Assembly: GCA_021826025.1 (NCBI GenBank)
Contig: JAKBBG010000012.1
Coordinates: 1 to 33,829, forward strand
DNA from: Pseudomonadota bacterium
Lineage (GTDB): Bacteria > Pseudomonadota > Gammaproteobacteria > Burkholderiales > Ferrovaceae
Direction: 5' to 3'
Length of the DNA stretch: 33,829 nt
Shown here: piece by piece, positions 18,432 through 33,265 of the stretch
Numbering within the stretch: position 1 is the stretch's first letter
Layout of the letters: every line of letters starts with the position of its first letter
Position numbers and translations under genes: made by a program
Notes under the pieces: generated by a model
Databases searched by the model: none
Seen by the model: only the letters and a program-made list of their open reading frames with translations
Told to the model about the DNA's origin: nothing

Positions 18432-18518
18432 GCCCGGGTGGCGAAATTGGTAGACGCATCAGACTCAAAATCTGACGCTGGCGACAGTGTGCCGGTTCGA
18501 GTCCGGCCCCGGGCACCA
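18432..18518 (+). tRNA. tRNA-Leu (anticodon CAA)
   Basis: An 87-nt class II tRNA with acceptor GCCCGGG (18432-18438) pairing CCCGGGC (18508-18514), discriminator A and encoded CCA (18516-18518). The anticodon arm is TCAGA-CTCAAAA-TCTGA, giving CAA for UUG codons. It has a long variable arm and a T arm with loop TTCGAGT. All arms pair. It is the attachment site of the mobile element that follows. Confidence 0.97.
18496..18518 (+). other. attL core (tRNA-Leu 3' end, T loop to CCA)
   Basis: The 23 nt from the T loop through CCA are the expected crossover region for P4-type integrases in tRNA genes, and the integrase locus begins about 100 bp downstream. A partly matching copy lies at 33553-33574 (19 of 23 positions with one gap). 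Confidence 0.55.
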
Positions 18519-18613
18519 AACACCCCTCCGCAGTCATCCAACCCAGTCCAGAACCCCCAGTAAAAAAGCACATTCTAGCCGTTTTCTCGTCCAAGGTCGT
18601 CCAAACAAATCTA

Positions 18614-18643
18614 TTGCAATCTACCCCTTCGTGGGGGTATATA
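18614..18643 (+). promoter_or_regulatory. Putative integrase-operon promoter overlapping an arm-type site
   Basis: TTGCAA (18614-18619), 18-bp spacer, TATATA (18638-18643). A GGGGGTAT motif (18633-18640) overlaps the -10, and an inverted TACCCC lies at 18622-18627. The same GGGGTA motif is repeated near the right end. Binding of integrase here could repress its own transcription. Confidence 0.45.
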
Positions 18644-18667
18644 TGGTGGTCAAAGGGAGGCGCGGAA

Positions 18668-19120
18668 ATGCTCTACCCCCAGAAAACCATCAAATCCACA
18701 TCAATTGACGCACTGCGGCCGTTGCTTAAGCCGTACAAGGTGGGCGCCGGCGGCGGCCTTTACCTTCTGGTCACGCCCGGTGGCGCCAAGTACTGGCGAC
18801 TGAAGTACCACTTCGACGGCAAAGAGAAATTGCTCTCCCTGGGCGTATACCCGGACGTGAGCCTGACGAAGGCCAGGGAGCGCCGGAAGGAAGCCCGGGG
18901 GATGCTGGCGGTCGGGATCGACCCATCTGACCTCGCCAGGAAAGCCCGGGAGGAACGCCATAATGAACGGCTGCGCCAAGAAATCGCCAACCGGTTCACC
19001 CTGGACAGCGATGGTGCGTTGCATCTCCGGCTGGGGAGGCGCTACCTGGCACTCACGGCAGCAGAAACGAACGACCTCCGCCATTTCCTCCGCGCGCAAC
19101 CCGCCGGTTCTCAGGGATAG
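18668..19120 (+). CDS. Stand-alone integrase arm-DNA-binding-domain protein (DUF4102-like)
   Basis: A 150-aa protein whose first 90 or so residues clearly parallel the N-terminus of the integrase encoded next: [19 protein letters not shown] against KGLFLLVHPNGSKYWRQKY, then [21 protein letters not shown] against EKLLALGVYPEIGLSQARERR. It lacks the core-binding and catalytic domains. Instead it ends in an unrelated segment of about 40 residues ([18 protein letters not shown], then a helix). The start at 18668 is set by GGGAGG seven bases upstream; the stop is three bases before the integrase ATG, so the two are coupled. It could compete for arm sites, direct excision or control int, but no function is established. 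Confidence 0.8.
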
Positions 19121-19123
19121 GCC

Positions 19124-20332
19124 ATGGCGCTCTCAGACGTCACAATCCGCACCGCCAAGCCCAAGGCCAAGCAGTACAAGCTGGCCGACGAAAAGGGGCT
19201 GTTCCTGCTCGTCCACCCCAACGGTTCGAAATACTGGCGCCAGAAATACCGCTTTGAGGGAAGGGAAAAGCTGCTGGCTCTGGGCGTCTACCCCGAAATA
19301 GGCCTTTCCCAGGCCAGGGAGCGGCGCGACGAGGCCCGCAAGCTGCTGGCGCAGGGCGTAGACCCCGGGCAGCACCGGAAGGCCCTCAAGGCCTCCAGGG
19401 AGGAAGCGGCAGCCAACAGCTTCGAGGTGATGGCCAGGGAGTGGCTTGAGAACCGCAAGGCGTCCGTCGAACACGCGCAGCACGTCAAAACGCTGGCCCG
19501 GCTGCAGCGGGACGTTTTCCCCTGGCTGGGCCGGAAGCCCATCGCCAGCATTGAGGCCACCGATGTTCTGTCGGTTCTGAAGCGGGTGGATGCCCGCGGC
19601 GCCCGGTTTACCGCCCACAGGATCCGCAGCGAGGTCAGCCAGGTCTTCCGCTATGCAATCGCCACCGGCCGGGCCAAGCGCGACCCCTGCCCTGACTTGA
19701 AGGGGGCCATTCCTGCAGCGCAGACGGAGAATTTCGCCGCCATCACCACACCGGCCGAGGTTGGCGCGCTGCTGAGGGCCATAGACGGCTTCAGGGGCAC
19801 CTTCCCCGTACAGTGCGCCCTACGCTTGGCGCCGCTGCTGTTCGTGCGCCCTGGCGAGCTCAGAAAGGCCAAGTGGCAGGAGTTCGACCTGGACAAGGGC
19901 GAGTGGAAGTACACCGTCAGCAAGACCAAAACCGAGCACCTGGTGCCCTTGGCCCCCCAGGCCGTAGCAATCCTGCGGGAGCTGCAGCCCCTGACCGGCC
20001 AGCGGGATTACGTCTTTCCCGGCGCCCGGGATCCTCAAAGGCCCATGAGCGACGCTGCCATCAACGCCGCCCTGCGCCGGATGGGGTACGACACCAAATC
20101 CGAAATCACCGGCCACGGCTTCAGGGCCATGGCGCGCACTATCCTGGCCGAACAGCTCCACCAAAAGCCGGAAGTGATCGAGCACCAGCTGGCGCACAGC
20201 GTGCCCGACTCCCTGGGCAAAGCCTACAACCGGACAAAGTTTCTGAAGGACCGGAAAGAAATGATGCGCCTTTGGGCGGACTATCTGGATCAGCTCAAGG
20301 CGGGCGCGGAGGTCATTCAGTTGAGAGGGTAA
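19124..20332 (+). CDS. P4-type tyrosine-family site-specific integrase
   Basis: The 402-aa recombinase that integrates and excises the element at tRNA-Leu. Domains: arm-binding DUF4102 (about 1-90), core-binding SAM-like domain (about 98-190), catalytic domain (about 205-390). The catalytic set is complete: Arg242 (VRPGEL), Lys268/Lys270 in the SKTKTEH hairpin, His331 and Arg334 (GHGFRAMA), His358 (LAHS) and nucleophile Tyr368 (AYNRT). It is translationally coupled to the upstream arm-domain protein. Intact, so the element may still be mobile if both att sites function. Confidence 0.95.
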   Translation: MALSDVTIRTAKPKAKQYKLADEKGLFLLVHPNGSKYWRQKYRFEGREKLLALGVYPEIGLSQARERRDEARKLLAQGVDPGQHRKALKASREEAAANSFEVMAREWLENRKASVEHAQHVKTLARLQRDVFPWLGRKPIASIEATDVLSVLKRVDARGARFTAHRIRSEVSQVFRYAIATGRAKRDPCPDLKGAIPAAQTENFAAITTPAEVGALLRAIDGFRGTFPVQCALRLAPLLFVRPGELRKAKWQEFDLDKGEWKYTVSKTKTEHLVPLAPQAVAILRELQPLTGQRDYVFPGARDPQRPMSDAAINAALRRMGYDTKSEITGHGFRAMARTILAEQLHQKPEVIEHQLAHSVPDSLGKAYNRTKFLKDRKEMMRLWADYLDQLKAGAEVIQLRG

Positions 20333-20429
20333 TACCGCCGCCTGACGGTTTCAGGCAAACGGGAAGCCCTGGTGATAGCGCACCGGGGCGACCCTAACCA
20401 CAAAGCAACCTAGCAAGGAGGTTCGCATC

Positions 20430-20702
20430 ATGGCTGTAGACCAGAGTAGCACACCCGCCCCAGCGGAGTTTAACCCGACCATTATTGTCGATTACCCCGA
20501 CTATGAGCCGTGGCGCAAGATTGCCCTCGCGCGTGAGTTGGTAGCGGGAAGCCTTGCCCTCTTGAGCTCTCAAGGATGTGGAACACCCCTCGATCCCTCG
20601 GATGAGATTGACCGCATGAACTGCGCTCAGAATCTGCTGCTGCAGGTTTTCGGGATTTTGGTGGAGGTTCAACCCCCGTCAAAGTGCCTGACCACAAACT
20701 GA
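20430..20702 (+). CDS. Hypothetical 90-aa protein
   Basis: No family recognised. The sequence is acidic at the N-terminus with a helical middle (WRKIALARELVAGSLALLSSQ) and no signal peptide or membrane segment. Support for being a gene is the strong AAGGAGG site nine bases before ATG. The leader AAGGAGGTTCGCATCATGGCT is nearly identical to that of the next gene, so the two start regions look duplicated. The product is probably cytosolic. About 100 bp without a gene separate it from the integrase; that gap holds only a small GCCTGA/TCAGGC hairpin. Confidence 0.65.
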   Translation: MAVDQSSTPAPAEFNPTIIVDYPDYEPWRKIALARELVAGSLALLSSQGCGTPLDPSDEIDRMNCAQNLLLQVFGILVEVQPPSKCLTTN

Positions 20703-20719
20703 ACAAGGAGGTTCGCACC

Positions 20720-21013
20720 ATGGCTAAATCCACAACAGCAAACGCCTCACCAGAAGCAACAGAAATCCCGAATGCGGGGACGAAGGAAACTCCAGACTTG
20801 TATGACGAACTTACATCGGTGATGGATGACCTGCATACCGTTTCGGCAAAGGTCAGAGCCGGTCATGCATTGGTTGCCGCCGCCGAATCAGAATCGGATC
20901 CACAGAACGACCTGGCAGCGGCTTTTCGCGTTTTTGATGACGTAATGTGCGATATTGCCAAGGTCATCACAAGAATCGACGTGCTCTCGATAGAACATTC
21001 GGCGGAGGCATAA
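20720..21013 (+). CDS. Hypothetical 97-aa protein
   Basis: An acidic protein with a disordered N-terminal 25 residues rich in Ala, Thr, Glu and Pro. Two amphipathic helices follow, DLYDELTSVMDDLHTVSAKVRAGHALVAAA and NDLAAAFRVFDDVMCDIAKVITRID read in sections, suggesting a helical hairpin or small four-helix dimer. The start at 20720 is preferred over an in-frame ATG 36 nt upstream because of the AAGGAGG leader duplicated from the preceding gene. Function unknown. Confidence 0.65.
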   Translation: MAKSTTANASPEATEIPNAGTKETPDLYDELTSVMDDLHTVSAKVRAGHALVAAAESESDPQNDLAAAFRVFDDVMCDIAKVITRIDVLSIEHSAEA

Positions 21014-21030
21014 TTGATAACCAGGTTTGG

Positions 21031-21525
21031 ATGTTTCCATATAGCTGGGTAAACGCCGTGCAAGAAGAAATCTACGGCACCAGGGATCGCGCCTATTCCG
21101 CATGGCATAGGCGCGGTTCTACCCGACGGTTTGTCGGCATCGACAGCGCGCAGCTGCTGGCCATGATCGACCTGGATGCAGCCCTGTACGTCGAGTACGA
21201 CAACGGCACCAAGGAACCGCTGGCGCTCATTGAAACCGCCCTCGATGTCGGGCAGCGACACAAGACAGCGACCGTAACCAAAATGCTGGCCAAGCGTGCT
21301 GGCGTTCCCTGCTATTGCGTGCTGTACATGCCTGGGCGTAATGCGAACCCGGCTGATTCTCGCTGGCGGGACATTCGGCAGTTCCGAGTCCGTAGGATGT
21401 GGCCACGGCCTGAGAAGGAATGGCGCGTGCTGACACCGCAGGAGTGGGCGCACGGGCTCATCAAGATCCGGGCCTGGTCAGCAAAGCGGCTGGACCTGCA
21501 AGCTGCAAACGATGAAATGTACTGA
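21031..21525 (+). CDS. Hypothetical 164-aa protein, possible PD-(D/E)XK-like fold
   Basis: Not recognised with certainty. The order of elements (a helix, DLDAALYVEYDNG, LALIETALD, a lysine-bearing helix TVTKMLAKRAG, then VPCYCVLYMPG) resembles the beta-alpha-beta core of restriction-endonuclease-like proteins, in which an acidic residue ends one strand and a Glu the next. However, the usual Lys after the Glu (E-x-K) is missing: the sequence reads IETA. The ATG at 21031 has only a weak AGG. A better-placed GGCGGAGG (21001-21008) precedes an in-frame ATT at 21013, so the true start is unsettled. It ends just before the next gene. Confidence 0.6.
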   Translation: MFPYSWVNAVQEEIYGTRDRAYSAWHRRGSTRRFVGIDSAQLLAMIDLDAALYVEYDNGTKEPLALIETALDVGQRHKTATVTKMLAKRAGVPCYCVLYMPGRNANPADSRWRDIRQFRVRRMWPRPEKEWRVLTPQEWAHGLIKIRAWSAKRLDLQAANDEMY

Positions 21526-21618
21526 TTGAGTTACGCCGCGCCTAGGCTGATCCCCGAAAACCTGCTCCCTTGGCAGACTGGCGCGGCTCCTTTGTTCAAG
21601 GGGCGCAGAAGGGGCGTT

Positions 21619-22248
21619 ATGAAGAAATCCTATTTCTTAGCGGAGATGGATGGTGCAGCAGACGAGGCATTGCGCTTTGCATTTACCGCATTCATCCAGA
21701 AGCAATTCTCGCCCCCCGCGCCGGCCGACGGACCAGGGATTATCAACAGAGCGCTTAATCACGGGGAGAGCAAAAATCAGCACCCTGCCGCAGCACAATC
21801 AAAAGCACTTTTATCCGAGGCTTATAGAGCATTTTCCGCTATACAACCCGCTCCCACTCCTGATGAAGAGGAACTTCTTCACGAGGCGATAGGGGAAGCC
21901 CTGGATTCCGCATTAATTGCACGTGAAGCAGCAGAACTGGCAATTGCAAAATTGTTCACAAATTTAGAGTTCATGAAGGCGCTTAAAAAGGATGGTCAGC
22001 GAGGAAGCAGCCGCCAGATGGTGGTACAAAAGCGTCGCAAAGCGGCAAATCAAAACGACCCCTTTAAGAACTTCGTTCTAGCACATCCACGAATGAGCGC
22101 CCTTGCGCTTGAAAAATTGATGGAAAAAGCGGGAATTATCCTTCGTGACAAAAATACTGGTCAGATATTAGACATTCCAGCAAAGAAATTGCTAAGTGGC
22201 GCAACAATGGCTTCCAGAATTAGCCGGATACGAAATGGCCGCATTTAG
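21619..22248 (+). CDS. Hypothetical 209-aa protein
   Basis: No family recognised. Mostly helical and soluble. An acidic central part ([20 protein letters not shown]) is followed by a basic linker (QKRRKAA) and a C-terminal block ([24 protein letters not shown]...IRNGRI) that looks like a small domain of its own. The start at 21619 has an AAGGGG site; a TTG 93 nt upstream in the same frame, right after the previous stop, is a weaker alternative. Codon use becomes less GC-rich here than in the host genes. It overlaps the start of the next, broken gene by 14 nt. Confidence 0.6.
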
Positions 22249-22698
22249 GAAAATCTTTTCAGGAGGCCAAACGGGCGCCGACCGTGCGGCCCTGGACTGG
22301 GCAATTGCCAACGGCATCCCTCACGGTGGCTGGTGCCCAAAGGGCCGCATTGCCGAAGACGGGGTGATCCCTCATGCTACCAGCTGGAAGAGATGTCGGA
22401 GGAAGGCTACCTAGCGCGCACAGAGGCCAATGTCCGCGACTCGGACGCTACCCTGATCCTGACACTCAATCCGACATTGGCCGGCGGCAGCAAGAACACC
22501 GCCAAATTTGCGGCCAGGCTTGCAAAGCCGTGCTTGCATCTACATCCGGCCATGGACTGGAAAACTTCCCTGACTGATTGGCTCAGTGCCCACCAGGTTC
22601 AGGTTCTCAATGTGGCTGGACCCCGGGAGAGCAAAGAGCCCAATGTAGCCGCTTTCGTATTCCAGGTTTTAGACTGTGCGATGAAACCCGAAAAGTAG
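22235..22698 (+). pseudogene. Frameshifted YpsA/SLOG-type putative molybdenum carrier protein
   Basis: Two overlapping frames join into one recognisable protein. The first part holds the nucleotide-binding signature [18 protein letters not shown] and [13 protein letters not shown]; the second holds YQLEEM, the segment ending in TEANVRDSDATL, TLAGGSKNTA and the C-terminal Rossmann half. The break is near 22376-22379. One base missing from an alanine codon after ATCCCTCAT would restore IPHAYQLEEM. The family (cpYpsA, SLOG superfamily) is found in mobile elements and is proposed to bind nucleotide-derived ligands; molybdenum carriage is an annotation, not shown here. It could be a true mutation, a sequencing error or a programmed shift. 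Confidence 0.75.
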
Positions 22699-22708
22699 GG
22701 AGGGCAGC

Positions 22709-23155
22709 ATGAAGAGGTTTATGTGTACTCGGCTGTTTGTCGGACTGCTTTCAATGGGCCCATTTGGGTATGTTCATGGAGAATCGCCTCTTGGAACATA
22801 TGTCGAAGGCCAGGGAAACGATTCGGTTGGCCAAAGATTGGTCTACGCTATTAAGCAACAATTGAGAAAAGACCCGTCGGTAGCTCTTAAAGATACCCCA
22901 AAAGGCGCGTCTCTCGTGCTTCATGTTATGACTTTAGACCCGAATGCGGACGCACCCACCTCAAGTGGATTAGCCAACAACTTGACCGTCTATTCCGCCA
23001 TTTGGCTGATCCCACACCCAGGCGCTCTTGACTCATTGATATACGACGATTTTGGCGTCTGCGGTACTCGACGGATCGTGGAATGTTCTGAAGCGATAGC
23101 TGCCCGGACTGACAAATACGCATCCCAGGTCCGTGCAGCACTCCAAGCGCAATAG
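22709..23155 (+). CDS. Hypothetical exported protein, 148 aa
   Basis: It begins with a basic residue pair and a hydrophobic stretch (about 8-22, LFVGLLSMGPFGYVHG), consistent with a signal peptide cut before ESPLG, so periplasmic or outer-surface. The mature part has an alpha/beta look (VGQRLVYAIKQQLRKD, ASLVLHVMTLDP, NNLTVYSAIWLIPH) and two cysteines (CGTRRIVEC) that could form a disulfide. GGGAGGGC precedes the ATG. AT-richer than the host. Probably element cargo; no function known. Confidence 0.65.
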   Translation: MKRFMCTRLFVGLLSMGPFGYVHGESPLGTYVEGQGNDSVGQRLVYAIKQQLRKDPSVALKDTPKGASLVLHVMTLDPNADAPTSSGLANNLTVYSAIWLIPHPGALDSLIYDDFGVCGTRRIVECSEAIAARTDKYASQVRAALQAQ

Positions 23156-23189
23156 CGTCTTGAAGAGTGCGCGAGGCAGGACCTAGCAG

Positions 23190-23534
23190 CTAGTTACAGA
23201 ACGTTTGGTTTCCGATTTGCTGGCATGTCTTGCCATTCGAAAAATGAGTCTGGTTCCCAATTTGCTGGGAACTCATACCGTTTGAATAGAACGTCTGATT
23301 TCCAATTTGCTGCGCGTTCAGCCCGTTCGAATAATAGGTCTGATTTCCAATCTGCTGAGCCGTAACACCGTTTGAGTAGTAGGTGTTGTTGCCGATTTGC
23401 TGGGCATTGAGCTGCCCCTGAGGTCCATTGTCACAGAATGTCTGGTTCCCAATTTGCTGGCAGTTTGGGAATGCGAAAGAGACACAGGGAATGAAAGCCA
23501 GCGCGAGCATGAGAATCTTGTATTTCTGACCCAT
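23190..23534 (-). CDS. Exported 15-residue-repeat protein (QQIGNQT repeats)
   Basis: A 114-aa precursor with a signal peptide (about 1-21, cut near SFA-FPNC) and a body built of tandem 15-residue units of the form AQQIGNQTYYSNGLN. There are four regular units plus flanking partial ones. The first and last copies carry Cys (CQQIGNQTFC), suggesting disulfide caps at each end of a small beta-solenoid-like stack. The start at 23534 has a GGAGG site. The DNA repeat is 45 bp, with third-position differences showing some age. Convergent with the preceding exported-protein gene. Role unknown; surface or periplasmic binding is possible. Confidence 0.75.
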   Translation of the reverse strand: MGQKYKILMLALAFIPCVSFAFPNCQQIGNQTFCDNGPQGQLNAQQIGNNTYYSNGVTAQQIGNQTYYSNGLNAQQIGNQTFYSNGMSSQQIGNQTHFSNGKTCQQIGNQTFCN

Positions 23535-23645
23535 AGTGAACCTCCATAAGTTCTTGTTGTTAACTTCAGAGACGTTGTTTTTATGGGAGAAAATCACAGA
23601 GCAGCGCTTGACGTATCTCATGGAAAACACGTCAGTCGGTGGATG

Positions 23646-24725
23646 CTATCCGAGTATCTTGCTTACCGCAACTTGGCCTTTTTCTGACGCCAAATATGAA
23701 ACCACCCATTTAGGAGCGATGAGATTTACTAGCTCATCTAGCCACGTGACTACTTCAGAATGAGGCGATGAGGTTAATAAAAATCCGATGTCACTTTGTT
23801 TTTCATGGACTACAAGGCCTTGTGGGGTAAGTTTTAGGGAGTATCCAGGGTCATTCACCCCTCTTTCTAAAACTGTTTTCTGGCATCCTGATTGAGGGTT
23901 ACATACATAGCGCGCTAATTCCTCGATAAGTCTTGCAAGACGCATGGCAGCCATTGAAACCCTCGTTGAAGTTGATGCACTGGTGACGCCCATTCCAGGT
24001 GATGTGTAAATATGGCCATCGATTTTCAGGAAAGAATTAACACCGTTGGTACGAAGGTTATGCACTTCTTCCATTGATCTAGCGCTTTCATCGCTTAACC
24101 CACTGACCCCTTTAAGCCTAGACCGTTCGAGATATTGCGGCCAGCATCTGTGCACAATTGTCATTAACTCTGGGTCTGAAAAACCTTTCTTGCAGGGATG
24201 TCGTCGCACATCAATGAAACCAACGGCCTCGTTTTCGACTATGCAAAACGCGAGGTAATCTGACGGCTCCGAAAAGAACTGACCTTCTGGAATTGGAGCT
24301 GCCGTAAGATGGAAATGCAAAACTCCCCAGTCTGCCCATAGCAAATCAGTTCTTTTATCTCGGGTCTGAGAGCTAGTATCATTTTTCAAAATCAGGCCTC
24401 TTCCTTGGTACGGATTAATGTCCTTCCCAGAGGTGATTAGATTTGCTAGATGTTGAAGCCCTTTAATGGCCCCTTTTGGCAGATTCCGTTTTGGAAACAT
24501 GTCTGAACAAAGAATCCGTCTAGGCTTTGACTCAACATATCGCAGTACAAAGTCGAGCCAGCGGAACAATGGCGAATCGAGATGATTCAACTCCCTGGAG
24601 AATTTTAGGCCATATGATTTTATGAAACCTTCTGCCAGTATTTCTGCATCGGCCTGAAATTTTTTTGCCAGCTGCTGCGCGTCCAAGTCATTCCTCAACC
24701 ATAAGATCCATGAGATGCATAGCAT
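23646..24725 (-). CDS. Hypothetical 359-aa protein, AT-rich cargo gene
   Basis: No family named with confidence. A central region, WADWGVLHFHLTAAP, then YLAFCIVENEAVGFIDVRRHP and ELMTIVHRCWPQYLE, forms a conserved-looking block with HFHL and an RRH motif. Such His/Arg clusters suggest a catalytic site, possibly nuclease-like; this is inference. It is clearly lower in GC than both the host and the phage-like genes to its right, as typical of recently gained cargo (a moron). The start is uncertain: the ATG at 24725 has no ribosome site, while a TTG 14 codons in follows GAGGA. It lies 27 bp past the 1463-aa virion gene, in the position where satellites and prophages often carry defence or conversion genes. 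Confidence 0.65.
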   Translation of the reverse strand: MLCISWILWLRNDLDAQQLAKKFQADAEILAEGFIKSYGLKFSRELNHLDSPLFRWLDFVLRYVESKPRRILCSDMFPKRNLPKGAIKGLQHLANLITSGKDINPYQGRGLILKNDTSSQTRDKRTDLLWADWGVLHFHLTAAPIPEGQFFSEPSDYLAFCIVENEAVGFIDVRRHPCKKGFSDPELMTIVHRCWPQYLERSRLKGVSGLSDESARSMEEVHNLRTNGVNSFLKIDGHIYTSPGMGVTSASTSTRVSMAAMRLARLIEELARYVCNPQSGCQKTVLERGVNDPGYSLKLTPQGLVVHEKQSDIGFLLTSSPHSEVVTWLDELVNLIAPKWVVSYLASEKGQVAVSKILG

Positions 24726-24752
24726 CTCTGTTTCAGAGAATTAAAAGTTAAC

Positions 24753-27700
24753 TCATCGTCCAGCTATGCCGTCAAAGGCCTGACGCTGCTCCTCGGTGGC
24801 GTGCTTTTGGAAATCCTCCACTGCACGCGCACTGAGCCTGCTTTCAGGCACCAGCATTCTGGTGAGCATTGACCCTACCTCCGCAGGCACCATGCCGGCA
24901 TCAAGCAGCTTCTGGGCTGCATCGTCTATCCTGCCATACTTGATGTCGCGCTTCACGTCTGGCATCACCTGCTCGATTCGTTCGCGGTATTCCTTCTTGG
25001 CCTGCAGCATCTGACCGACAGCGGGGCCGCCTGGCGCACCGTGGGATGGTGTAATGCCTGTCACATACCCCAGGAGCTGTGCCGTGTCCGAACTATCCCC
25101 GGCCTTATTGGCAAGGTCGAAGGCCGACATCATCACCGGCAGTGGGATCTGATTCTCCATGAAGTTGGTCACAATGCGGCCCATGTTCTTCAACGACTCC
25201 AGGCTCACCGCATGCGCATCTGGGTTGTAGACGTGCTTTCCGAACCCTTTGTCATTGGCGGCCGTCTCGGCCATCGGCCGCAGGAACGTGCTCTCCTTGC
25301 GCTTGAATTCCTCGATGGGCGACGTAGCCCAGCCGATCAACTCTTCTCCGATTTTCCCCACGGGGTTGCGCAGGTAGATGGCTGTGCCGCTCTTGTCCTT
25401 CTCCCAGAAAATGCGCCCTTCGTGTCCCGGCTCGTTTTCGGCCAGCGACCACAGGCGCGAGGGTGCTGACAGGATGTTGAGCGGGTTTTCCTTGATGCGC
25501 TCGAATTCCTGGGCAAAGCGATCCAGATAGCCGCGCCCCACATCGCCCCAGGTTTTCCGGTCCTTGTAGACGTTGACGGCATCTTGCAGGAATGAGTTGA
25601 TGACGTAGTAACCCAGGATGGTGTCGAGCGCAATGGCCATGAGGGCTTTGCGCCTTCCCGCATCCCTGGCGCCACGCAGCGCGAACTCGCCCATGTCGCG
25701 CTTGATCTGGGCCGCAACGTCTCCGGGCAGGCCGTGAATGGCGTCCTTCATGATCCCCAGATTGGTCATCGTGAAGCTTCTGGAGAACAGGGTGAAGTTT
25801 GCGATTGCGCGCGACATGTAGGACATGGACTCGTTGGGGATGGCCCCAGCAAAGCGGTTGGCATCGTGCGCCGCTATGCGGGAAGCGGTCTGGGGGTCGT
25901 GCCCTTCAGCAATCAGCCGATCCCTGAAATTGGCGTAGAGGCCGACCTGCAGCTTCTGCACCTGGTCCCACAGCAGCTTGTTGTGGACAAAATCGCCAAC
26001 GGCATCCACAACCTCCCGCACCCGCTGGCCAGAACCGGCCCTGAGCTTGTCGGCAGCGTAGCCCAGGGCCTTGGCAGTCCAGCTGCGGCCGGCCCGGATG
26101 CTGTCGGGTTCAAGAACGCCGGTCATCTCCTGTTTGAAGCCCTGATGCCCGATAAGCACCAGGCCATTGGAAATCGCTTCCCGAATGAAATCGTGGTCAT
26201 CCAGGTATCGGGCGCCGTCCCGGTAAATCTGGGCTGTGATGACCTTCCCCGGGAGCGCCGGCAGGGCTTTGCCAAACACAACCATGTTGTGGATCATGGG
26301 CGACGCCATAATCGCGTTCATCACTTCAGCCTTGGCCTGCATGAAACCCTGATAGATGGCGCCCGGCTTCTCCGACATAATCGCCTTCAGCGGGCCCTCG
26401 AATTGCCTGCTGACCCACAGCGGCTTGTGATCCAGGATAGTCTCGCCATTCTGATCCATGGCTGGAACCTTGGCGCCGTCGCGCTCTACCATGCGCGGAG
26501 CGTAGGTCTTGAAGGCGGGATGATCCAGGGTGAAAAACCCCGGGCGCTCGTAATCGCTCACCAAGTTTTCGCCAATGCGCTCACCCAGCTCCTTGATGGA
26601 GTTGATAAGCTCGCGGCCGGCGACCGCGTTCTCTATCCTGGACAGGGCCAGCGGGATCACCCGCAGATTCCTCACGAGGGTTGCTCCGCTCCCCAGCTTG
26701 GCTTTCATGGCCGCCTCGGTTTCGTCGGCAGTCAGGTGCTTCCGGTGCAGCAAGTGCGGCGAATCCACGGTGATGTTGCTGCCTGCGCCATCGTTGCTCG
26801 GGCTGCCGGCAGGCTTCTCCTTCGGTGCATGCATGCCGCCATCGTCCCCTATCATTGCCGCCATGCGCGGGGTCCAGTACGGCAGGCCCTCCCCGCGAAG
26901 CATGCCCGCCGCCTGCATCTGGCCCCGCACCTCCTCGTTGTAGGCCTGCATCCGTTCCACGACGGCACGCTCGGCCGGCGCCAGTGCGCCCAGACCCTTG
27001 GCAGGATCCGTGAGGCCCTGCTGACGCATGACGCTTTCCTCGTCGCTGGCATTCCACATACGCTCGAGCTGCTGGGGGGTGAAGTCCTTTTTCAGCACGC
27101 CGTCCACCTGGTACCAGTTGTACTGGGCGACGCGCATCGCATTGGCTGCGTCCTTGGCTGCAGCCTGGGCATATTCCGACCCGGCTGACATCGGATCGAC
27201 TTTCATCCGCAGGTCATCGGCCAGCTTTGCAATGTAATTCCGGATTGGGGAGCGTGCCGGCGACGACTGGGCAGCCGGGACCAGATTCTGGGCGCCTTCC
27301 CTGCTCAACAGGGGAGCGTTCAGGGTTGGCTCGACCGGCCACGCGTTCCGATACAGCCGGCGCTCACCCTCGCGCAGCATGGCAAACACATCCTGCTCGG
27401 TCAGCCCTGTAGCCCAGCGTGCGTTGATCCCGTGGCTGATAAGGGCATCCTTGAGCCGGAAAGAAAGGTCAGACACGATCCGGGAGAGCGTCTTCACGTC
27501 CTTGTAGGCTCCAGTCTCGACCGCCTGCGCCAGGATTTCCTTTGCTCGCGATTGAGGGTCAAGGCCAGGCTGGCTCTCATCCACCCGCTGCGCCAGCGCC
27601 CGGACGGTCTTGTTGCCGCCCTTGTCCAGGAGTCGCACATTGTCCAGAGCGTTCTGGTAGGTCTTGGCACCGATCAATTCCTCGGGCGCCAGGTGCCCAA

Positions 27701-29144
27701 TGACTTCATGGGCTGCCACCTGCTGCACGCGGCCCATGTCCTGAAGCTTGCTGGCCACCAGATAAACACGGCCATGGCCGGCATAGACGCCTTCCACGCC
27801 ATCCCCGAGGCTATCCAGCCGCGGGCGAACATCGGCGGGCAGGTCATCGATGGTGGGCACAACCTCCAGAGTCTTGCCGTGGGATGCCAGGGCGTTGGCA
27901 ACGGGCTCCAGGCTACGCCGGATGTCCTCAACAGGCAAAGCCAGGGGCTCGGGTTCAGGTGGCGTGCTTGGCTGCGCCCCAGTGGCCACTTCATGGGCTT
28001 TCTGGATGGCGTCTTCAAGGGTCGGCTGGTACAGGATTTCCGAAGCAGATTGCTCCAGTTTTTCACTCGGGGGCGGTTCCGCTGCCTTGACCAGCTCCTG
28101 GGCGGCCTGGGTGAACTGTTCGGGCTGGGCGCTCCCGAAATCACTTTGCCCGGCTGGCGCCGCTTCTGCGCTCGCAGCCATGGCGTTCCGGGATGCGTCA
28201 GTTTCCAGGGGCCGAATGGCGTCCAGCTGGTCGATGGTTGAGGTAACCGGAGGGCCCGGGGGTGCTGTTTGAACCGGTGGTGCGTCTTCAGGGGGCGCCT
28301 GGATTCCTGTGCTTGCAGGGATGGCATCATCGGGAGCTCGCATTGAGCCGGCAGCGTGCGCCAATTCGCCAGCGGCATGCACAGCCCCGGCGGTAGCCGC
28401 CCACTGGCCGGCCGTGTTGACGACCTGCTGCGCATCCAATGGGCGGTCAGGGTCAGCCACTTGCGCCACAGCCTCGGCTCCGGCACCCACAGCACCGGCT
28501 TTGCCGGCCTCCATGGCAACCTTTGCTGCTGCGCCGGCCACTTTCCCGTATTCGGCAGCCCTGGCAGCAAGCATGGCCGTGCGTACGGTCGCCAGCTCCG
28601 GGGTAAAAAGCAACTCCGGATCCTCCTCGATGCCTTTGACCAGGGCGCCCAAGGTCATGCCCGGGCGCGTCTTGGCGAGCTCGTAGAGCTGCGACATGGC
28701 ATCGCTGAAGCTGGGGGTCGGCTGGTTCGCGGCAGGAGACTCGCTGTGCTGACCAGTCACTCGCTTGGCAATTCCGGTAACAATCTGCCCCGCCACCCCT
28801 TCACTCAGGTCTGGATGCAGCACCTGATCCAGAAAATCCCGCACATCCCGGTTTTGGGCCAGGCCCGAATTGGGCATGTCCGCTTCGGTGAACGTAGGCG
28901 TCTGCTCGGGCGTGTCCGTGGTGCTGGCTGCCATGTCCTGGCGAATGGGGCTGTCATCCTCCCAGTCCGACCCCGAGCCTTGTGCACCGGGAGCCGGTGC
29001 TGAGTCGGACGGCGCGCGCTCGCCCCCAGGCCCACCCGGGGCAAACTGGGGGAAGTTTCGGGTAATCGCGTCGGCCATGGCCCCCTGAGACATACCATCA
29101 GGAAAGTTGAGCCGGGTCTGGTCGGGCAGGATGACGGTCTGCAT
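24753..29144 (-). CDS. Large polyvalent/ejection-type phage virion protein (1463 aa)
   Basis: Layout: a short N-terminal motif (LNFPDGMSQGAMADAI, about 12-27) common at the start of large phage virion proteins; long Ala/Pro-rich linkers to about 400; a domain with VAAHEVIGHLAPEE, whose HEVIGH at 479-484 fits the HExxGH form of zinc peptidases; a helical middle; and a C-terminal region with NRFAGAIPNESMS, TLFSRSFTMTNLGIMKD and ARDAGRRKA (about 1100-1180). That last region matches what I know of large polyvalent-protein domain LPD38. Such proteins are packaged and probably injected with DNA (internal virion or pilot protein). Its ATG shares one base with the upstream stop (TAATG), so expression is coupled. 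Confidence 0.8.
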   Translation of the reverse strand: MQTVILPDQTRLNFPDGMSQGAMADAITRNFPQFAPGGPGGERAPSDSAPAPGAQGSGSDWEDDSPIRQDMAASTTDTPEQTPTFTEADMPNSGLAQNRDVRDFLDQVLHPDLSEGVAGQIVTGIAKRVTGQHSESPAANQPTPSFSDAMSQLYELAKTRPGMTLGALVKGIEEDPELLFTPELATVRTAMLAARAAEYGKVAGAAAKVAMEAGKAGAVGAGAEAVAQVADPDRPLDAQQVVNTAGQWAATAGAVHAAGELAHAAGSMRAPDDAIPASTGIQAPPEDAPPVQTAPPGPPVTSTIDQLDAIRPLETDASRNAMAASAEAAPAGQSDFGSAQPEQFTQAAQELVKAAEPPPSEKLEQSASEILYQPTLEDAIQKAHEVATGAQPSTPPEPEPLALPVEDIRRSLEPVANALASHGKTLEVVPTIDDLPADVRPRLDSLGDGVEGVYAGHGRVYLVASKLQDMGRVQQVAAHEVIGHLAPEELIGAKTYQNALDNVRLLDKGGNKTVRALAQRVDESQPGLDPQSRAKEILAQAVETGAYKDVKTLSRIVSDLSFRLKDALISHGINARWATGLTEQDVFAMLREGERRLYRNAWPVEPTLNAPLLSREGAQNLVPAAQSSPARSPIRNYIAKLADDLRMKVDPMSAGSEYAQAAAKDAANAMRVAQYNWYQVDGVLKKDFTPQQLERMWNASDEESVMRQQGLTDPAKGLGALAPAERAVVERMQAYNEEVRGQMQAAGMLRGEGLPYWTPRMAAMIGDDGGMHAPKEKPAGSPSNDGAGSNITVDSPHLLHRKHLTADETEAAMKAKLGSGATLVRNLRVIPLALSRIENAVAGRELINSIKELGERIGENLVSDYERPGFFTLDHPAFKTYAPRMVERDGAKVPAMDQNGETILDHKPLWVSRQFEGPLKAIMSEKPGAIYQGFMQAKAEVMNAIMASPMIHNMVVFGKALPALPGKVITAQIYRDGARYLDDHDFIREAISNGLVLIGHQGFKQEMTGVLEPDSIRAGRSWTAKALGYAADKLRAGSGQRVREVVDAVGDFVHNKLLWDQVQKLQVGLYANFRDRLIAEGHDPQTASRIAAHDANRFAGAIPNESMSYMSRAIANFTLFSRSFTMTNLGIMKDAIHGLPGDVAAQIKRDMGEFALRGARDAGRRKALMAIALDTILGYYVINSFLQDAVNVYKDRKTWGDVGRGYLDRFAQEFERIKENPLNILSAPSRLWSLAENEPGHEGRIFWEKDKSGTAIYLRNPVGKIGEELIGWATSPIEEFKRKESTFLRPMAETAANDKGFGKHVYNPDAHAVSLESLKNMGRIVTNFMENQIPLPVMMSAFDLANKAGDSSDTAQLLGYVTGITPSHGAPGGPAVGQMLQAKKEYRERIEQVMPDVKRDIKYGRIDDAAQKLLDAGMVPAEVGSMLTRMLVPESRLSARAVEDFQKHATEEQRQAFDGIAGR

Positions 29145-30103
29145 TACTTGAAGCTCCCTGTGCTGGGATCCCAGGTTAGCGTGCCCGATCCGCTTGCCGG
29201 CGAGGCAGCAGGTGCAGCGGGTTGCCCGTTACCGGAAACAGCATCAGGCGTGCTTGGCAGTCTTCCTCCAAACATCGCGCGGGCGACTGCATTGCGCATG
29301 AGTCGAACGTTGGACAGGGCCTGCTGGTGGTCTGCAAGCTGGCTCTGGAGGTTCGTCACATGATCCTTGTGGGCACTCAGCTTGTCCGGGTCTTTGCCGA
29401 TCAAAGCCATGTTCATGGGGCTGATTGCGGTATCAAGCTCCTTCTGCAGCTGGGTGATTTGCTGCGTCTCGGCACGCTCGTCCGCGTTGTAGCCCTGCAT
29501 GAGCATCATCCGCTCACCGCTGTGCATCCCCTTCACGTCGGACATCATCTTGGCAATAGCCAGGGAGGTTTCGTTCTTGGCCGCAGCCGCATCCAGCTTT
29601 GCCTGCATGTTGTCGCGCCAGGTATCCATACGCAGCTGCATCAGCTCCTGCCTGTTGGCGAGGCCAGCATCAGTGGCTGGGTCGATGTAGCCCGTATCCA
29701 CGCCGGCCTGGCGTCGGATGTCGGGGTTATTGGGATTGATGGCGTCGAACCTGGCCTGATCCTCGGGCGACAGGTCATCGCGGGTGACTGGGCTCGATGT
29801 GCCGGTGGGCTGCCCATTTGCGTCTACGTCAGCCGGGTCGTACTGGTTGAGGATGTTCTGCTGCTGTTGGGCAGCGATGTCTGCAGCACGGCCGCCCACG
29901 GTCGCTGCCATCTTCTGGCGTTCCGCATCAGCCAGCTGCAGCTTCGTTTCCTCGATACGCGCGGCTTTTTCCACGTCCATGTTGGCCCTCGAGTTTTCGA
30001 GAACCTGCATATTGGCGAAGTGACCATACTGCGATGCGGCATCGGCAATTCCTGCCCCGGCGCCTGAGGTTGCGCCAATCATCAAAGCGTCTAGCATTCC
30101 CAT
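29144..30103 (-). CDS. Phage virion-associated protein, 319 aa
   Basis: A helix-rich protein. A Gly/Ala-rich start (MIGATSGAGAGIADAASQYG) is followed by long coiled-coil-like stretches with many Gln, Glu and Met, and a disordered Pro/Ser/Gly-rich tail. The pattern is like the internal virion or ejection proteins that accompany large polyvalent proteins in T7-like and related podoviruses. It lies between terS and the 1463-aa gene in one leftward operon; AAGGAG precedes the start. Structural role inferred from context and composition only. Confidence 0.65.
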   Translation of the reverse strand: MGMLDALMIGATSGAGAGIADAASQYGHFANMQVLENSRANMDVEKAARIEETKLQLADAERQKMAATVGGRAADIAAQQQQNILNQYDPADVDANGQPTGTSSPVTRDDLSPEDQARFDAINPNNPDIRRQAGVDTGYIDPATDAGLANRQELMQLRMDTWRDNMQAKLDAAAAKNETSLAIAKMMSDVKGMHSGERMMLMQGYNADERAETQQITQLQKELDTAISPMNMALIGKDPDKLSAHKDHVTNLQSQLADHQQALSNVRLMRNAVARAMFGGRLPSTPDAVSGNGQPAAPAASPASGSGTLTWDPSTGSFK

Positions 30104-30120
30104 GTTTTTCTCCTTGAAAG

Positions 30121-30678
30121 TTACCGGCCGCCGGCCAGGTTGAGGTTTAGCGTGACTGTCGGCACCTTCTGGGAGTTGTCACGCTCGAACATCCCCAGGT
30201 GTTTCATCAGCTGCTCCCGGGCCTGCCCGCGGGTCGCCCACTTGATCTTGCGCACCAGGATGGGCATGTCGGACGTTCCGGCCATTTCCACTTCCAGGGA
30301 GGTCAGCGCCATGCGCGTGTCCTCGTCCAGCTCGGTGACTTTCTTCAGCGTGCCGTCATCGTTGTAGAGCTTGGCGGGGTCGAAAGTCAGTTCCTGGACG
30401 ATGCTACGGGCGGCCAGCTCGGTGGTCATGCGGTATTTCTCTGCGATTTCCTTGGCGCGCGCCGCAATTCGGGTCGAAACATACGCATCCTTCAACAGCC
30501 GCTGCCCCTGGCTTGCGGCCGTCTTTGGACTGAACCCAGCCTCTCGTGCAGCCTCTGTGGCGTTGCCACCGTTGGTGATGTAGGCCTCGACAAACACCGT
30601 TCTGCGCAGGGCCACAGCCTGTTTCTGCGTGCCAACCCTTGCGATGCGCCTCCCGTTGTTTCGTTTCGTCATGGTCAT
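30121..30678 (-). CDS. Phage terminase small subunit (TerS)
   Basis: DNA-recognition subunit of the packaging motor; it binds the pac or cos site and recruits the large subunit. The 185-aa protein contains the Terminase_2 helix-turn-helix block FVEAYITNGGNATEAAREAG-FSPKTAASQGQRLL (about 29-63), followed by an oligomerisation part and a C-terminal segment (RGQAREQLMKHLGMFERDN). The start at 30678 overlaps the stop of the upstream RHH gene as ATGA; an ATG two codons later has better ribosome-site spacing. No large terminase is found anywhere in the element, which is the main reason to suspect a satellite that borrows a helper's TerL. Confidence 0.88.
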   Translation of the reverse strand: MTMTKRNNGRRIARVGTQKQAVALRRTVFVEAYITNGGNATEAAREAGFSPKTAASQGQRLLKDAYVSTRIAARAKEIAEKYRMTTELAARSIVQELTFDPAKLYNDDGTLKKVTELDEDTRMALTSLEVEMAGTSDMPILVRKIKWATRGQAREQLMKHLGMFERDNSQKVPTVTLNLNLAGGR

Positions 30679-30884
30679 TGGCCTCCCGTCTTGTTTCCGG
30701 TAACAAGCTGCTCCAGGGCTTCCTCGACGACTTCCCAAAGCTTGAGGCCTTTGCCGGCAGCGTAGGCCCGGGCCTGTTCAATCAGCGCCTTGCCGATTGT
30801 CACCTCCAGCCGGGCGCAGCCCTGTGCCGCCTGTTCCTGGCGCCATTGCCGAAGCCGGGCATTGCTGGTCTGTCGTTCAGTCAT
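30675..30884 (-). CDS. Small ribbon-helix-helix-like protein
   Basis: 69 aa. The core RLEVTIGKALIEQARAYAAGKGLKLWEVVEEALEQLV, read in sections, has the strand-helix-helix pattern of ribbon-helix-helix DNA-binding proteins, after a basic Arg/Gln-rich N-terminus. The start at 30884 is set by GGGAGG; the stop overlaps terS. The imperfect palindrome TTGTTTCCGGTAACA occurs on both sides of this gene (30690-30706 and 30991-31006) and could be its operator, in keeping with RHH repressors binding near their own genes. Function inferred. Confidence 0.65.
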   Translation of the reverse strand: MTERQTSNARLRQWRQEQAAQGCARLEVTIGKALIEQARAYAAGKGLKLWEVVEEALEQLVTGNKTGGQ

Positions 30885-31006
30885 CGCGGTTGCCTCCCTG
30901 CTCCCTCGCGCGCGCGTATTTGTGCAAAAATGTCGTGCGTTCCCTCGCGCGCGTGCGCGTACATGTCGCAAAACTCGGCGGCGCGCTGCCCTTGTTTCCG
31001 GTAACA
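30690..31006. repeat. 16-bp repeated near-palindrome flanking the RHH gene
   Basis: CTTGTTTCCGGTAACA occurs at 30690-30705 and again at 30991-31006. It is an imperfect dyad (TTGTT-CCGG-AACAA). Shorter copies lie at 29228-29240 (inverted, GTTACCGGAAACA) and 28772-28782 (TTCCGGTAACA). Operator or packaging/recombination motif; function unknown. Confidence 0.6.
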
Positions 31007-31014
31007 GGCTTCAT
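30877..31014 (-). CDS. Small basic ORF, 45 aa
   Basis: A short ORF starting MKPVTGNKGSAPP and rich in Arg, Thr and Ala (CTRTRARERTTFLHKYARAREQ), with an imperfect internal repeat around the two RARE segments. It has a strong GAGGTGAG site six bases before ATG and overlaps the RHH start by a few bases, so it fits the tight leftward operon. The VTGNK near its start is encoded by the repeated palindrome also found in the RHH and virion genes. The GC-rich CGCG runs could instead mean this is a non-coding site region; coding status is uncertain. Confidence 0.4.
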   Translation of the reverse strand: MKPVTGNKGSAPPSFATCTRTRARERTTFLHKYARAREQGGNRDD

Positions 31015-31019
31015 GGCGC

Positions 31020-31388
31020 TCACCTCGCCCCCGGCCTTCTGGATTGGATCTGGTTGACGTTGAAGCCGACTGCCGACAGGAATGCCAGGGCAATGCATAT
31101 CGCAGCTTGGGCACCGTATGAGCGGGCGCTGTAGCGATCCATCAGGGCATCCTCCAGCTCGAACACGAGGCGCCACACCGGAGACAGGTGCGAGAAGTCG
31201 CTTTTCCGGCGCGGCCGGCCAGTGCCTGGTGGGATGCGGGAGCCACAAGCGGCCAACACGGCCATGGCGACAGATGCAACAGCGTGGCGCCAGTGTTGAT
31301 TGGACTGATAGGCCGAATTGAGCCAGTTGTCGGTGGCCATGGTTGCGTGCCAGATCCGAGGGCGCAGACGGGCGTTCCAGAGTTTCAT
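31020..31388 (-). CDS. Hypothetical 122-aa protein with two hydrophobic segments
   Basis: No family recognised. It has a first hydrophobic stretch with a following cysteine (AVASVAMAVLAACGS, about 36-50), a basic/polar middle and a second hydrophobic stretch near the C-terminus (AQAAICIALAFLSAVGF, about 93-109), so it may be a small inner-membrane protein. AAGGAGAG precedes the start at 31388. It is one of a row of leftward genes between the 148-aa gene and terS. Confidence 0.55.
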   Translation of the reverse strand: MKLWNARLRPRIWHATMATDNWLNSAYQSNQHWRHAVASVAMAVLAACGSRIPPGTGRPRRKSDFSHLSPVWRLVFELEDALMDRYSARSYGAQAAICIALAFLSAVGFNVNQIQSRRPGAR

Positions 31389-31399
31389 AGTGCTCTCCT

Positions 31400-31846
31400 T
31401 CAGGCTGCCGCCGGCGACGTCAGGGAAAACTCCGCGGCGCGCAAACCTGGTGGGTTCCCATCAGGTGCGGTTTCGGTTTCATCCCCAGGCTCTTCGAAGT
31501 AATCGTCCATCACGTCCTCCAAGGCCACGACGGCATCCCACAGCGCCTGAACCTCTGGATCGTCCGCCGACGAACCCGAACCTGGCGGATAAATCGGGGC
31601 GGCTGCCAAGTCGTCGTGGATGTCCACCAAGCGGCTACGGAGGCGCTCCAGGCGTTTTTTGAGGGCTCGGGGTTGCCCAGGTGGCTTGGCAGGCTCCAGG
31701 AGCCCCACGGCCTCGGCAACGTGCCGAAGCTGTGAGGGGTGAACCTCGATGGTGACGGGGTCATCAATTCCCCATTGCTGTTCAAGCTGGATCGTGCCGT
31801 CCTCAAGTTTCCGGAACGTCAGGTCATGCATTTTTGCTGTGGTCAT
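31400..31846 (-). CDS. Hypothetical 148-aa protein
   Basis: A soluble acidic protein. The N-terminal 50 residues (LTFRKLEDGTIQLEQQWG, then VTIEVHPSQLRHVAEAVGLL) look like a small beta-rich domain followed by a helix. Then come a basic helix (ALKKRLERLRSRLVDIHDDL), an acidic helix (DPEVQALWDAVVALEDVMDDYFEEPGDE) and a disordered tail. GGAG lies eight bases before the ATG. The gap upstream (31847-32005) contains a stable hairpin at 31872-31895 and another at 31920-31948 but no gene. Function unknown. Confidence 0.6.
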   Translation of the reverse strand: MTTAKMHDLTFRKLEDGTIQLEQQWGIDDPVTIEVHPSQLRHVAEAVGLLEPAKPPGQPRALKKRLERLRSRLVDIHDDLAAAPIYPPGSGSSADDPEVQALWDAVVALEDVMDDYFEEPGDETETAPDGNPPGLRAAEFSLTSPAAA

Positions 31847-32005
31847 TGGGTTAGCTCCGTTGGGTTTTGGAACCCGGGAGCCGAAGCCCCCGGGTGGCAG
31901 GCACTCAGACAGTCAGATGTCGGGCCGCCGCCTTTTTCCAAGGCCCGATTTGCCATAAGGGTTCCCGGAAAGCCTTTTAGGACGGGCATTCCGGCTGTTT
32001 TGAGG

Positions 32006-32067
32006 CAGGTACAGGTATCAGGTAACAGGTTCAGGTAACTGCTATCTGCTAACTGCTTACTGCTACC
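32006..32067. repeat. Tandem CAGGTA and CTGCTAn short-repeat block
   Basis: Five CAGGTA/CAGGTT copies at 32006-32037 are followed by four CTGCTA/CTGCTT copies starting at 32039, 32046, 32053 and 32060, an exact 7-bp period. The 11-mer TTACTGCTACC at 32057-32067 recurs at 33269-33279 inside the right-end iterons. The block runs into the last codons of the 152-aa gene. Confidence 0.7.
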
Positions 32068-32521
32068 CGGTTTCAGCGCAGAGGATTGTGTCGATGACGG
32101 AGTAGCGCGCAGCCTCCGGAAGCTCCCTTTGCCGGTAGTCGTGGGTGACAGTCCGGGTGCGGACCCGCCAAACCTTCCCCTTGAGGTCATGCAAGGAAAT
32201 CCGGTCTGGGCGCCGGGTAACGTCCAGGAGCCGTGCCAGGTCCTTGAAGAGGTCGGATCCGCGCGCCAGGGTGAACTTGCCGCCTCGGCCCGGCCGCCCG
32301 ACGAGGGCCCGGACGCGGTATGGCCGGAAGAGCTTCGTGTCGAGGTAGGGCCCCATGTCGATGATGGCGAAACGCAGGAACACCTTGCCGGTCTTGAACG
32401 CGAGGGCCGTGTCGTGACCGTCGTAGCGCACCAGGTATTCACCGTCAGGGATGAGAGGGGCGACATCCCCGACGATTTCGGCATCCCACGCGCCCCCATC
32501 ATCATCGACCCGCGCCGTCAT
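32063..32521 (-). CDS. Uncharacterised 152-aa element replication-region protein
   Basis: The protein reads as an OB-fold- or beta-barrel-like domain: LIPDGEYLVRYDGHDTALAF, KVFLRFAIID, a basic loop RALVGRPGRGGKF, then a helix and KGKVWRVRTRTVTHD. This resembles small phage proteins near replication genes, possibly single-strand-DNA binding, but I cannot name a family. The start at 32521 has GGAGG seven bases ahead and overlaps the upstream winged-helix gene by 20 nt. Function not established. Confidence 0.6.
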   Translation of the reverse strand: MTARVDDDGGAWDAEIVGDVAPLIPDGEYLVRYDGHDTALAFKTGKVFLRFAIIDMGPYLDTKLFRPYRVRALVGRPGRGGKFTLARGSDLFKDLARLLDVTRRPDRISLHDLKGKVWRVRTRTVTHDYRQRELPEAARYSVIDTILCAETG

Positions 32522-32882
32522 GGCGCGCCTCCAGGCAGCCTGCGGCAAACTTCTGCCCATCCTCGCCGGCAGCGGCAATGGCCCCAGGGGGGAGTTCGTA
32601 GACCGCAATAACGGCTCGGCGGTTTCCATCAGACGTCGGAACCGTCTGGTCGGTCGTTGTGATTGGCCAGCCGTCTTGTCGGAGGTCCCATGCGTGGTGT
32701 GCCAATCTGCTGCTTCCGAATCTTCGCCAGCAGTCTAAATGCGTCAGCGCATCGCCCCGCAGCAGGGCGGCTAGGCACCGCCCCTTGACTGTGTCACGGC
32801 GTGGGTAGCACAATGGGACTTGAAAGTTTTGAGCATTACCGACGCCCGCTTGCCCGCGGGCGTTTTTATTGGAGGGTTCCAT
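32502..32882 (-). CDS. Winged helix-turn-helix domain protein
   Basis: 126 aa. Residues about 32-75 (VKGRCLAALLRGDALTHLDC, WRRFGSSRLAHHAWDLRQDGWPI) match the compact HTH_39-type domain in which a Leu/Gly pattern, a recognition helix around SSRLAHH and LRxxGW follow one another. Such proteins in phages and islands likely bind DNA near replication or control regions. The start at 32882 has AAGGAGGGG. The first 30 residues (KNARGQAGVGNAQNF) resemble, as far as I recall, N-termini of Ash/Icd-like reading frames of P4/P1-type elements. They overlap a hairpin on the opposite strand, so this part may be a read-through of a conserved RNA site. Confidence 0.65.
   Translation of the reverse strand: MEPSNKNARGQAGVGNAQNFQVPLCYPRRDTVKGRCLAALLRGDALTHLDCWRRFGSSRLAHHAWDLRQDGWPITTTDQTVPTSDGNRRAVIAVYELPPGAIAAAGEDGQKFAAGCLEARHDGAGR
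32785..32867 (+). ncRNA. Candidate short antisense RNA over the winged-helix gene start
   Basis: On the plus strand TTGACT (32785-32790), an 18-bp spacer and CACAAT (32809-32814) form a promoter-like pair. From about 32821 a transcript would run to an 8-bp hairpin, ACGCCCGC (32842-32849) / GCGGGCGT (32856-32863), and a T run, giving an RNA of roughly 45-50 nt. It lies opposite the 5' codons of the winged-helix gene, so it could pair with that mRNA. P4 and P1 control immunity with a small RNA (CI/C4) in a similar location; any homology is untested. Confidence 0.4.
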
Positions 32883-32891
32883 AGCCCCTCC

Positions 32892-33107: not shown

Positions 33108-33186
33108 TTTGGTCTCCATTTAGTCCAACTGTGTGTTGCTGGACAGGAGGTTTCATTCAACACCGCCCCGATGGCGCTGAAAAGCA

Positions 33187-33216: not shown

Positions 33217-33265
33217 AAACAGAAGATGGGCGCTTGGCATATCCGCTGCGCCAGTCAATACCCGG

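Follow-up and report, generated by a model that had tools for sequence, protein, structure and literature searches.

What might a protein that carries the DNA-binding arm domain of an integrase, and none of the other integrase domains, be doing directly in front of an integrase gene? The question was raised by a reading frame, hereafter the arm-tail gene, at positions 18668-19120 of the window, by which we mean the full 33,829-nt stretch of contig JAKBBG010000012.1 (GCA_021826025.1); features are on the + strand unless stated otherwise. The initial annotation described the frame as a free-standing arm-binding domain located just ahead of the integrase gene (int) and coupled to it, and its ends, its domain and its position were all borne out: it runs from an ATG at 18668 to a TAG at 19118-19120, its 150-aa product matched Arm-DNA-bind_3 (PF13356, which we take to be DUF4102) with an E value of 3.5e-23 and 82 bits versus a curated cut-off of 27, and int (19124-20332; 402 aa, with Pfam matches to arm, core-binding and catalytic domains) begins after a gap of 3 nt. 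By sequence reading, a Shine-Dalgarno-like GGGAGG is present at 18655-18660, 7 nt ahead of the ATG. Relatives of the gene are referred to by labels (L003, L058 and so on) that denote the genomic loci carrying them.

The arm-tail protein and its element

The arm domain occupies residues 11-92 (18698-18943), and in the AlphaFold2 model of the full-length protein (mean pLDDT 86.9), which superposes on 3ju0, it also matches 3jtz and 3rmp. It is followed by a predicted linker helix (residues 86-107; 18923-18988) and by a tail (residues about 108-146; 18989-19105) that, based on predicted structure and alignment, consists of three short strands plus a helix. Hairpin residues of the arm that would be expected to touch DNA have been kept, W38, R39 and Y42 in 11/11 arm-tail arms and R43 and K47 in 10/11. 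In the window protein, Pfam identified no core-binding or catalytic domain and nothing above chance in the last 43 residues, and the NCBIfam integrase model scored 46 bits against a cut-off of 434. The PHROGs integrase family phrog_1 aligned weakly over residues 10-141 (E 2.1e-5). There was no match of the protein to known RDF families (AlpA, Xis and TorI type) in Pfam, PHROGs or NCBIfam.

Thirteen columns of the tail were invariant in 12 sequences, and when it was modelled alone the same three short strands and helix were obtained (mean pLDDT 79.9). The initial annotation had designated the last ~40 residues as a novel segment; a distinct and conserved segment it is, but the word novel is not supported, given its likeness to a module at the C-terminus of wHTH-like proteins. 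Comparison of the tail with the module of three other proteins gave a probability of 95.9% in hhalign (one of the three had been found using the tail profile), and comparison with four proteins, that one excluded, gave 92.3% with a score of 33.2, where 200 column shuffles reached at most 15.7. Conversely, a search with the module profile recovered the arm-tail protein of L055 (E 2.6e-7). With an HMM of the three modules, 12/12 tails outscored all 2400 shuffles; with one built from only L071 and L072, 5/12 did so, the window tail not among them, and the window tail alone versus phrog_18765 reached an E value of 0.067 only. As judged from these profile comparisons, the tail as a family is homologous to the C-terminal module of phrog_18765-like proteins. 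Among the module carriers L057, L071, L072, L130 and L134, four of the five N-termini were wHTH-like (two above the curated cut-off) and one was unmatched. From the 10 places returned by the phrog_18765 search, L070-L072 were kept (C-terminal part of the profile, E below 1e-4), L073-L077 and L079 were set aside as outside or across the module, and L078 was set aside as a spurious-looking frame; 1/14 control genomes also matched. The 13 places from the module-profile search included the three query members, one arm-tail protein, L130 and L134, which were kept, and L132, which did not have such a look.

No relation of the tail to the integrase profile was found (probability 0.3%). By eye it resembles the hairpin-helix of the catalytic domain, and Cre was among its weak fold matches; an origin from the catalytic beta-hairpin plus helix was considered and rejected, the hhalign score being 7.4 versus a shuffled mean of 8.3. 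Foldseek identified no match to the tail fold in the PDB with E up to 0.001, the VIA-align neighbours all had Z under 4 with tied rows, and the best fold neighbours, none significant, had MRP, PC4 and Pur-alpha folds among them, with Z near 3. In the viral structure library, the four matches with E up to 0.001 were integrases. We consider that the tail probably serves in self-association or in binding to a partner.

The attachment gene is a tRNA-Leu(CAA) gene (18432-18518; ARAGORN), whose 3' end (about 18495-18518) represents the attL side. A degenerate copy of this 3' end, the likely attR, was recognized by eye at 33552-33574 and was missed by an ungapped search allowing up to three mismatches. 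Given that this copy is just beyond the right-end repeats described below, the element probably spans about 18495-33574 (~15.1 kb). Pfam matched a terminase small subunit in the element at 30121-30678, and in two scans of 10 element ORFs each against Pfam and PHROGs there was no family above its curated cut-off and no known RDF family; ORF 30678-30971 had a sub-threshold ribbon-helix-helix match. The window also contains two overlapping frames at 22196-22698 that resemble one broken gene, presumably for a putative carrier-type protein, and whose translation includes TLAGGSKNT. A 146-aa protein encoded at 23190-23630 (- strand) has tandem QQIGNQT(Y/F)YSNG-like repeats, and neither Pfam nor PHROGs gave a match to it at E values up to 0.01. 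A 1463-aa protein encoded at 24753-29144 (- strand), without an above-chance Pfam or PHROG match, belongs to the same gene run as the terminase match and is perhaps a virion protein.

Occurrence, decay and exchange of the gene

A search of the family identified a first relative in L003, at 53% over residues 13-145 and directly before an integrase. The first two tails matched six of 300 genomes of the order: the window's own, four others that carry arm-tail genes, and one in which the match was to a 301-aa protein of another kind (E 7e-4). A tail-only scan of genome_contigs produced 85 pattern matches, from which 12 loci were confirmed, and in all 12 an arm domain precedes the tail and int begins at once after it; other mobile elements of bacteria thus show the arrangement as well. 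Ten of the 12 are uninterrupted, and L060 and L064 are frameshifted within the sequence that encodes the arm. Adding the window and L023, which is also frameshifted, brings the number of distinct loci to 14 (several were recovered twice under other locus numbers), of which 11 are open; L060, L064 and L023 still have a recognisable tail. A programmed frameshift in the broken copies is unlikely because L064 and L060 are broken, by eye, at different places. The spacing from stop codon to int start was +3 nt in the window and ranged from -14 to +2 nt in the 11 other loci measured, the adjacency in L060 having been read separately, and in 6/11 loci the int start overlaps the upstream ORF by 10 nt. 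The gene in front was tmRNA in three loci, tRNA-Ala in four, tRNA-Ser in two and tRNA-Thr and tRNA-Val in one each, with Leu in the window and Met in L023; it was cut off in L068, and in L061 int itself is cut short. Named hosts, which we take to be beta-proteobacteria, include Paraburkholderia, Caballeronia, Nitrotoga, Ferrovaceae, Burkholderiales, Candidimonas and Hydrogenophilales.

When 321 genomes of the class were searched with the tail, only the window and L023 copies scored strongly, four other matches being weak (E 2.4e-4 to 0.009), and genome G697 had a second, weak tail match (E 0.0018, locus L122). In viral_contigs, 22 and 15 pattern matches to the tail yielded no confirmed locus, and with one tail as query each there was no match in phages or in plasmids. 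The whole arm-tail protein as query matched 221 phage and 142 plasmid records, and the four inspected among the matches listed were all single genes of 340-421 codons, which is integrase-sized. No such protein was described in the titles and opening abstracts of the papers listed, among which coverage of subscription papers is thin. A search of 300 genomes of the order located int at 53 places; among the 30 int loci examined from these, four had an arm-tail gene. The four ints nearest to that of the window are 72, 72, 70 and 69% identical to it, and the three examined (all but the 70% one) are without the gene, two of them at tRNA-Leu(CAA). The arm-tail gene is an optional companion of int.

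Selection on the protein was assessed from the 11 loci other than L060, L064 and L023. In all 55 pairs pN was below pS in both arm and tail, with pS near saturation in most, and tail identity equalled or exceeded arm identity in 52 of the 55 (rounded values). A decaying, functionless remnant of a duplicated integrase is the least probable of the readings considered here, given these ratios and the absence of a profile match between tail and integrases, even with frameshifts in three of the 14 loci, the patchy distribution (4/30) and the phrog_1 alignment in its favor. Further opposing it, six short arm ORFs elsewhere in the family look different: four continue into core-binding sequence, two stop after the arm, and the tail is absent from all six. 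A truncated integrase, which the initial annotation had named as the contrary case, was rejected on the grounds of tail conservation in 12/12 relatives, the dissimilarity of tail and integrase and pN/pS, the one contrary hint being the weak phrog_1 alignment. The arm-tail gene is real, conserved and not an integrase fragment.

The claim that the arm duplicates the integrase's own domain was too strong. The window arm is 52% identical to the arm of its own integrase, but that arm ranks 5th among 11 integrase arms for the window arm-tail protein, and the own int's arm was the closest match in 1/11 loci. In a 45-arm tree most arm-tail arms were apart from int arms, with weak support, and AT_L063 and AT_L069 were placed beside their own or other ints, also with weak support; four changes were needed, at least one of them forced, and the arm-tail arms may have a single origin or several. 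Distance tests were performed on 10 of the 11 loci, L061 being omitted since its int is cut short. Arm-tail arms are more diverse than int arms (mean identities of 0.47 and 0.62, respectively), and their co-variation with the arm of their own int was not significant (r 0.22, p 0.14; r 0.42, p 0.065 without L059). The distances between tails follow those between int arms (r 0.75, p 0.001; r 0.57, p 0.008 without L059). Loci L058 and L059 occupy the same tmRNA site and have ints that are 96% identical and tails that are 90% identical, but arms that are only 47% identical. Most of the difference between them falls in the segment for the arm and linker (46-60% identity in most intervals there), whereas the upstream stretch is at 76-100% and the tail-int region mostly above 90%. 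This one case indicates that the arm can be replaced by another without the tail being parted from int.

The region between the tRNA gene and int

A candidate operon promoter, TTGCAA and TATATA separated by 18 nt, is located at 18614-18643. On its own it is weak: 103/200 shuffles contained a pair as good, and the promoter scan tool did not report it. Its offset recurs, as a promoter-like pair with its -35 ~95 nt past the end of the tRNA or tmRNA gene was top-scoring in 7/11 arm-tail loci and in 15/24 arm-tail-free loci, versus means of 1.4 and 3.4 and maxima of 5 and 9 in mononucleotide shuffles. These counts covered 11 of the 14 arm-tail loci (without L064, L068 and L023) and 24 of the 26 arm-tail-free ones (without L099 and L110); the remaining 4/11 arm-tail loci had no top promoter-like match at this offset. 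Common descent of the DNA could also explain the recurring position. The recurrence places the arm-tail gene between the likely promoter of int and int, and the gene seems to have the position, immediately after promoter and arm sites, in which int is found at other loci. Such a fixed-distance, promoter-like -35/-10 pair is common to ints with and without arm-tail genes (L087-L115 and the arm-tail loci).

The GGGGTA repeats reported in the initial annotation are real and are present at both ends of the element. Three copies of TACCCCCA were identified in the window versus 0.56 expected, a number reached in 0/100 shuffles; two are at attL (18632-18639 and 18674-18681) and one is near the other end (33479-33486), where near-copies at 33453 and 33491 flank it. 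By itself, the looser TACCCC is unremarkable in frequency (14 in the window vs 8.1 expected, with 6/100 shuffles reaching that). At attL the putative arm-type sites comprise a half site, TACCCC, at 18622-18627 within the promoter spacer, TGGGGGTA at 18632-18639, which overlaps the candidate -10 by 2 bases and has 11 bp (TGGGGGTATAT) in common with the right-end site, and a site on the - strand at 18674-18681 in codons 3-5 of the arm-tail gene. The putative right-end sites (33453-33498) are TCGGGGTA at 33453-33460, TGGGGGTA at 33479-33486 and TTGGGGTA at 33491-33498. Arm-like repeats between or on the -35 and -10 were present in the window, L061, L065 and L067, and no exact repeated G/C-run 7-mer was identified upstream in L062 and L069.

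Possible roles and comparison with known systems

The sequence favours a promoter-proximal arm-site binder and is compatible with any of the roles put forward in the initial annotation (competitor, architectural factor or directionality switch). We propose, with a probability of roughly 0.4, that the arm-tail protein is a dedicated arm-site-binding protein and promoter-proximal partner of int that restrains int. The protein would bind the arm-type sites at attL, one on the candidate -10 and one in the start of its own gene, and also those at attR. Once bound, it would shut down the promoter of the arm-tail-int operon and compete with Int for the arms, and repression and competition together would keep Int low and the element integrated. 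An arm-only reader that is translated first and beside int could thus repress and compete without catalysis. Counted in support of the arm-site binder were the arm fold, the kept hairpin residues, the lack of a Pfam catalytic part, the tight spacing, the recurrence of the promoter-like site at ~95 nt, the arm-like repeats between or on its -35 and -10 in the window and three further loci, the tail common to wHTH-like proteins and the precedent of Int autorepression. Counted against it were the 26/30 ints examined without the gene, the frameshifts in 3/14 copies, the weak window promoter, the 4/11 loci off the offset and the lack of repeats in L062 and L069. Binding to the same sites as Int stays at conjecture in view of the greater diversity of the arm-tail arms and of their non-significant co-variation with int arms. 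It is more doubtful whether the protein is a modular anti-integrase, in which the int operon opens with a gene for a dedicated, exchangeable arm-site reader fused to a regulatory tail; such an arrangement would separate the control of Int from catalysis and would allow elements to retune by swapping the arm while the tail, which may be a small self-association module, stays with int.

The main rival to the arm-site brake is an architectural or directionality role, in which the protein would occupy selected arm sites in the intasome with its tail on Int or another subunit and favour integration or excision. We consider it rather unlikely, despite the constant pairing of the gene with int, the putative arm-type sites near either end of the element in the window and the lack of a known RDF family among the scanned element ORFs. 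The correlation of tail with int-arm distances is also consistent with such a role, and physical linkage explains it equally well. The nearest ints examined dispense with the gene, even at tRNA-Leu(CAA), the protein itself matches no RDF family, and the elements of L119 and L121 contain reading frames that, by eye, we take to be AlpA-like, which implies that the arm-tail protein is not the sole RDF candidate there.

The exchange of arms between elements with nearly identical ints at the same tmRNA, and the failure of arm-tail arms to follow significantly those of their own ints, would fit an arm that reads other sites, with the protein controlling some other promoter or a rival element, for example by blocking superinfection by elements that use the same tRNA. 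That possibility appears improbable in view of the conserved hairpin residues and of the position of the gene, which in the window adjoins the int's own arm-type repeats. Still less credence is given to a translational leader, an ORF that matters mainly because its translation gates that of int; the 10-nt overlaps with the int start are as such a leader would have them, but neither the conservation of the arm fold nor that of the tail, both with pN below pS, would be required of it.

Arm binding has so far been studied as part of the integrase, and possession of an integrase arm domain does not make a protein an integrase. An arm-only reader encoded in front of int could serve elements as a natural competitor for tuning integration and excision, and such a protein would be a ready tool with which to determine the effect of arm occupancy alone on promoter activity and intasome assembly. 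Its closest structural counterparts are the arm domains of the HPI and HAI7 integrases (3jtz, 3rmp and 3ju0), which are alike in fold (Foldseek E 1.6e-7 to 2.1e-6) and sequence (47-52%; E 2.3e-36 for the arm-tail arm versus the 3ju0 profile); there the arm is the N-terminus of a full recombinase, whereas here it belongs to a separate protein with another C-terminal part. The 157-aa arm-domain family phrog_3423 matches arm-tail residues 10-110 (E 1.6e-30), but its profile also covers int residues 1-151, into the core-binding part, and the tail is outside the match. The phrog_18765-like proteins share the C-terminal hairpin-helix module and differ at the N-terminus, which is wHTH-like in 4/5 of them rather than an arm domain.

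With respect to regulation, the report on KplE1 (PMC2951348) describes an int promoter that overlaps attL, repression by IntS of its own gene through sites located there, and a reduction in excision when IntS is in excess; P4 Int is reported in the same source to be self-repressing as well. The intS gene of KplE1 and int of P4 are comparable to the locus studied here in the order of tRNA gene and int, and would further be so in an attL-overlapping promoter with arm sites, at this locus a candidate one, and in the arm domain as the DNA reader. They differ in that the repressor is Int itself (and the RDF), whereas the candidate here is a separate arm-domain protein preceding int, which would play the part of negative autoregulator that in KplE1 and P4 belongs to Int itself. 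It looks like a known kind of control, arm-site autoregulation, performed by a new kind of part.
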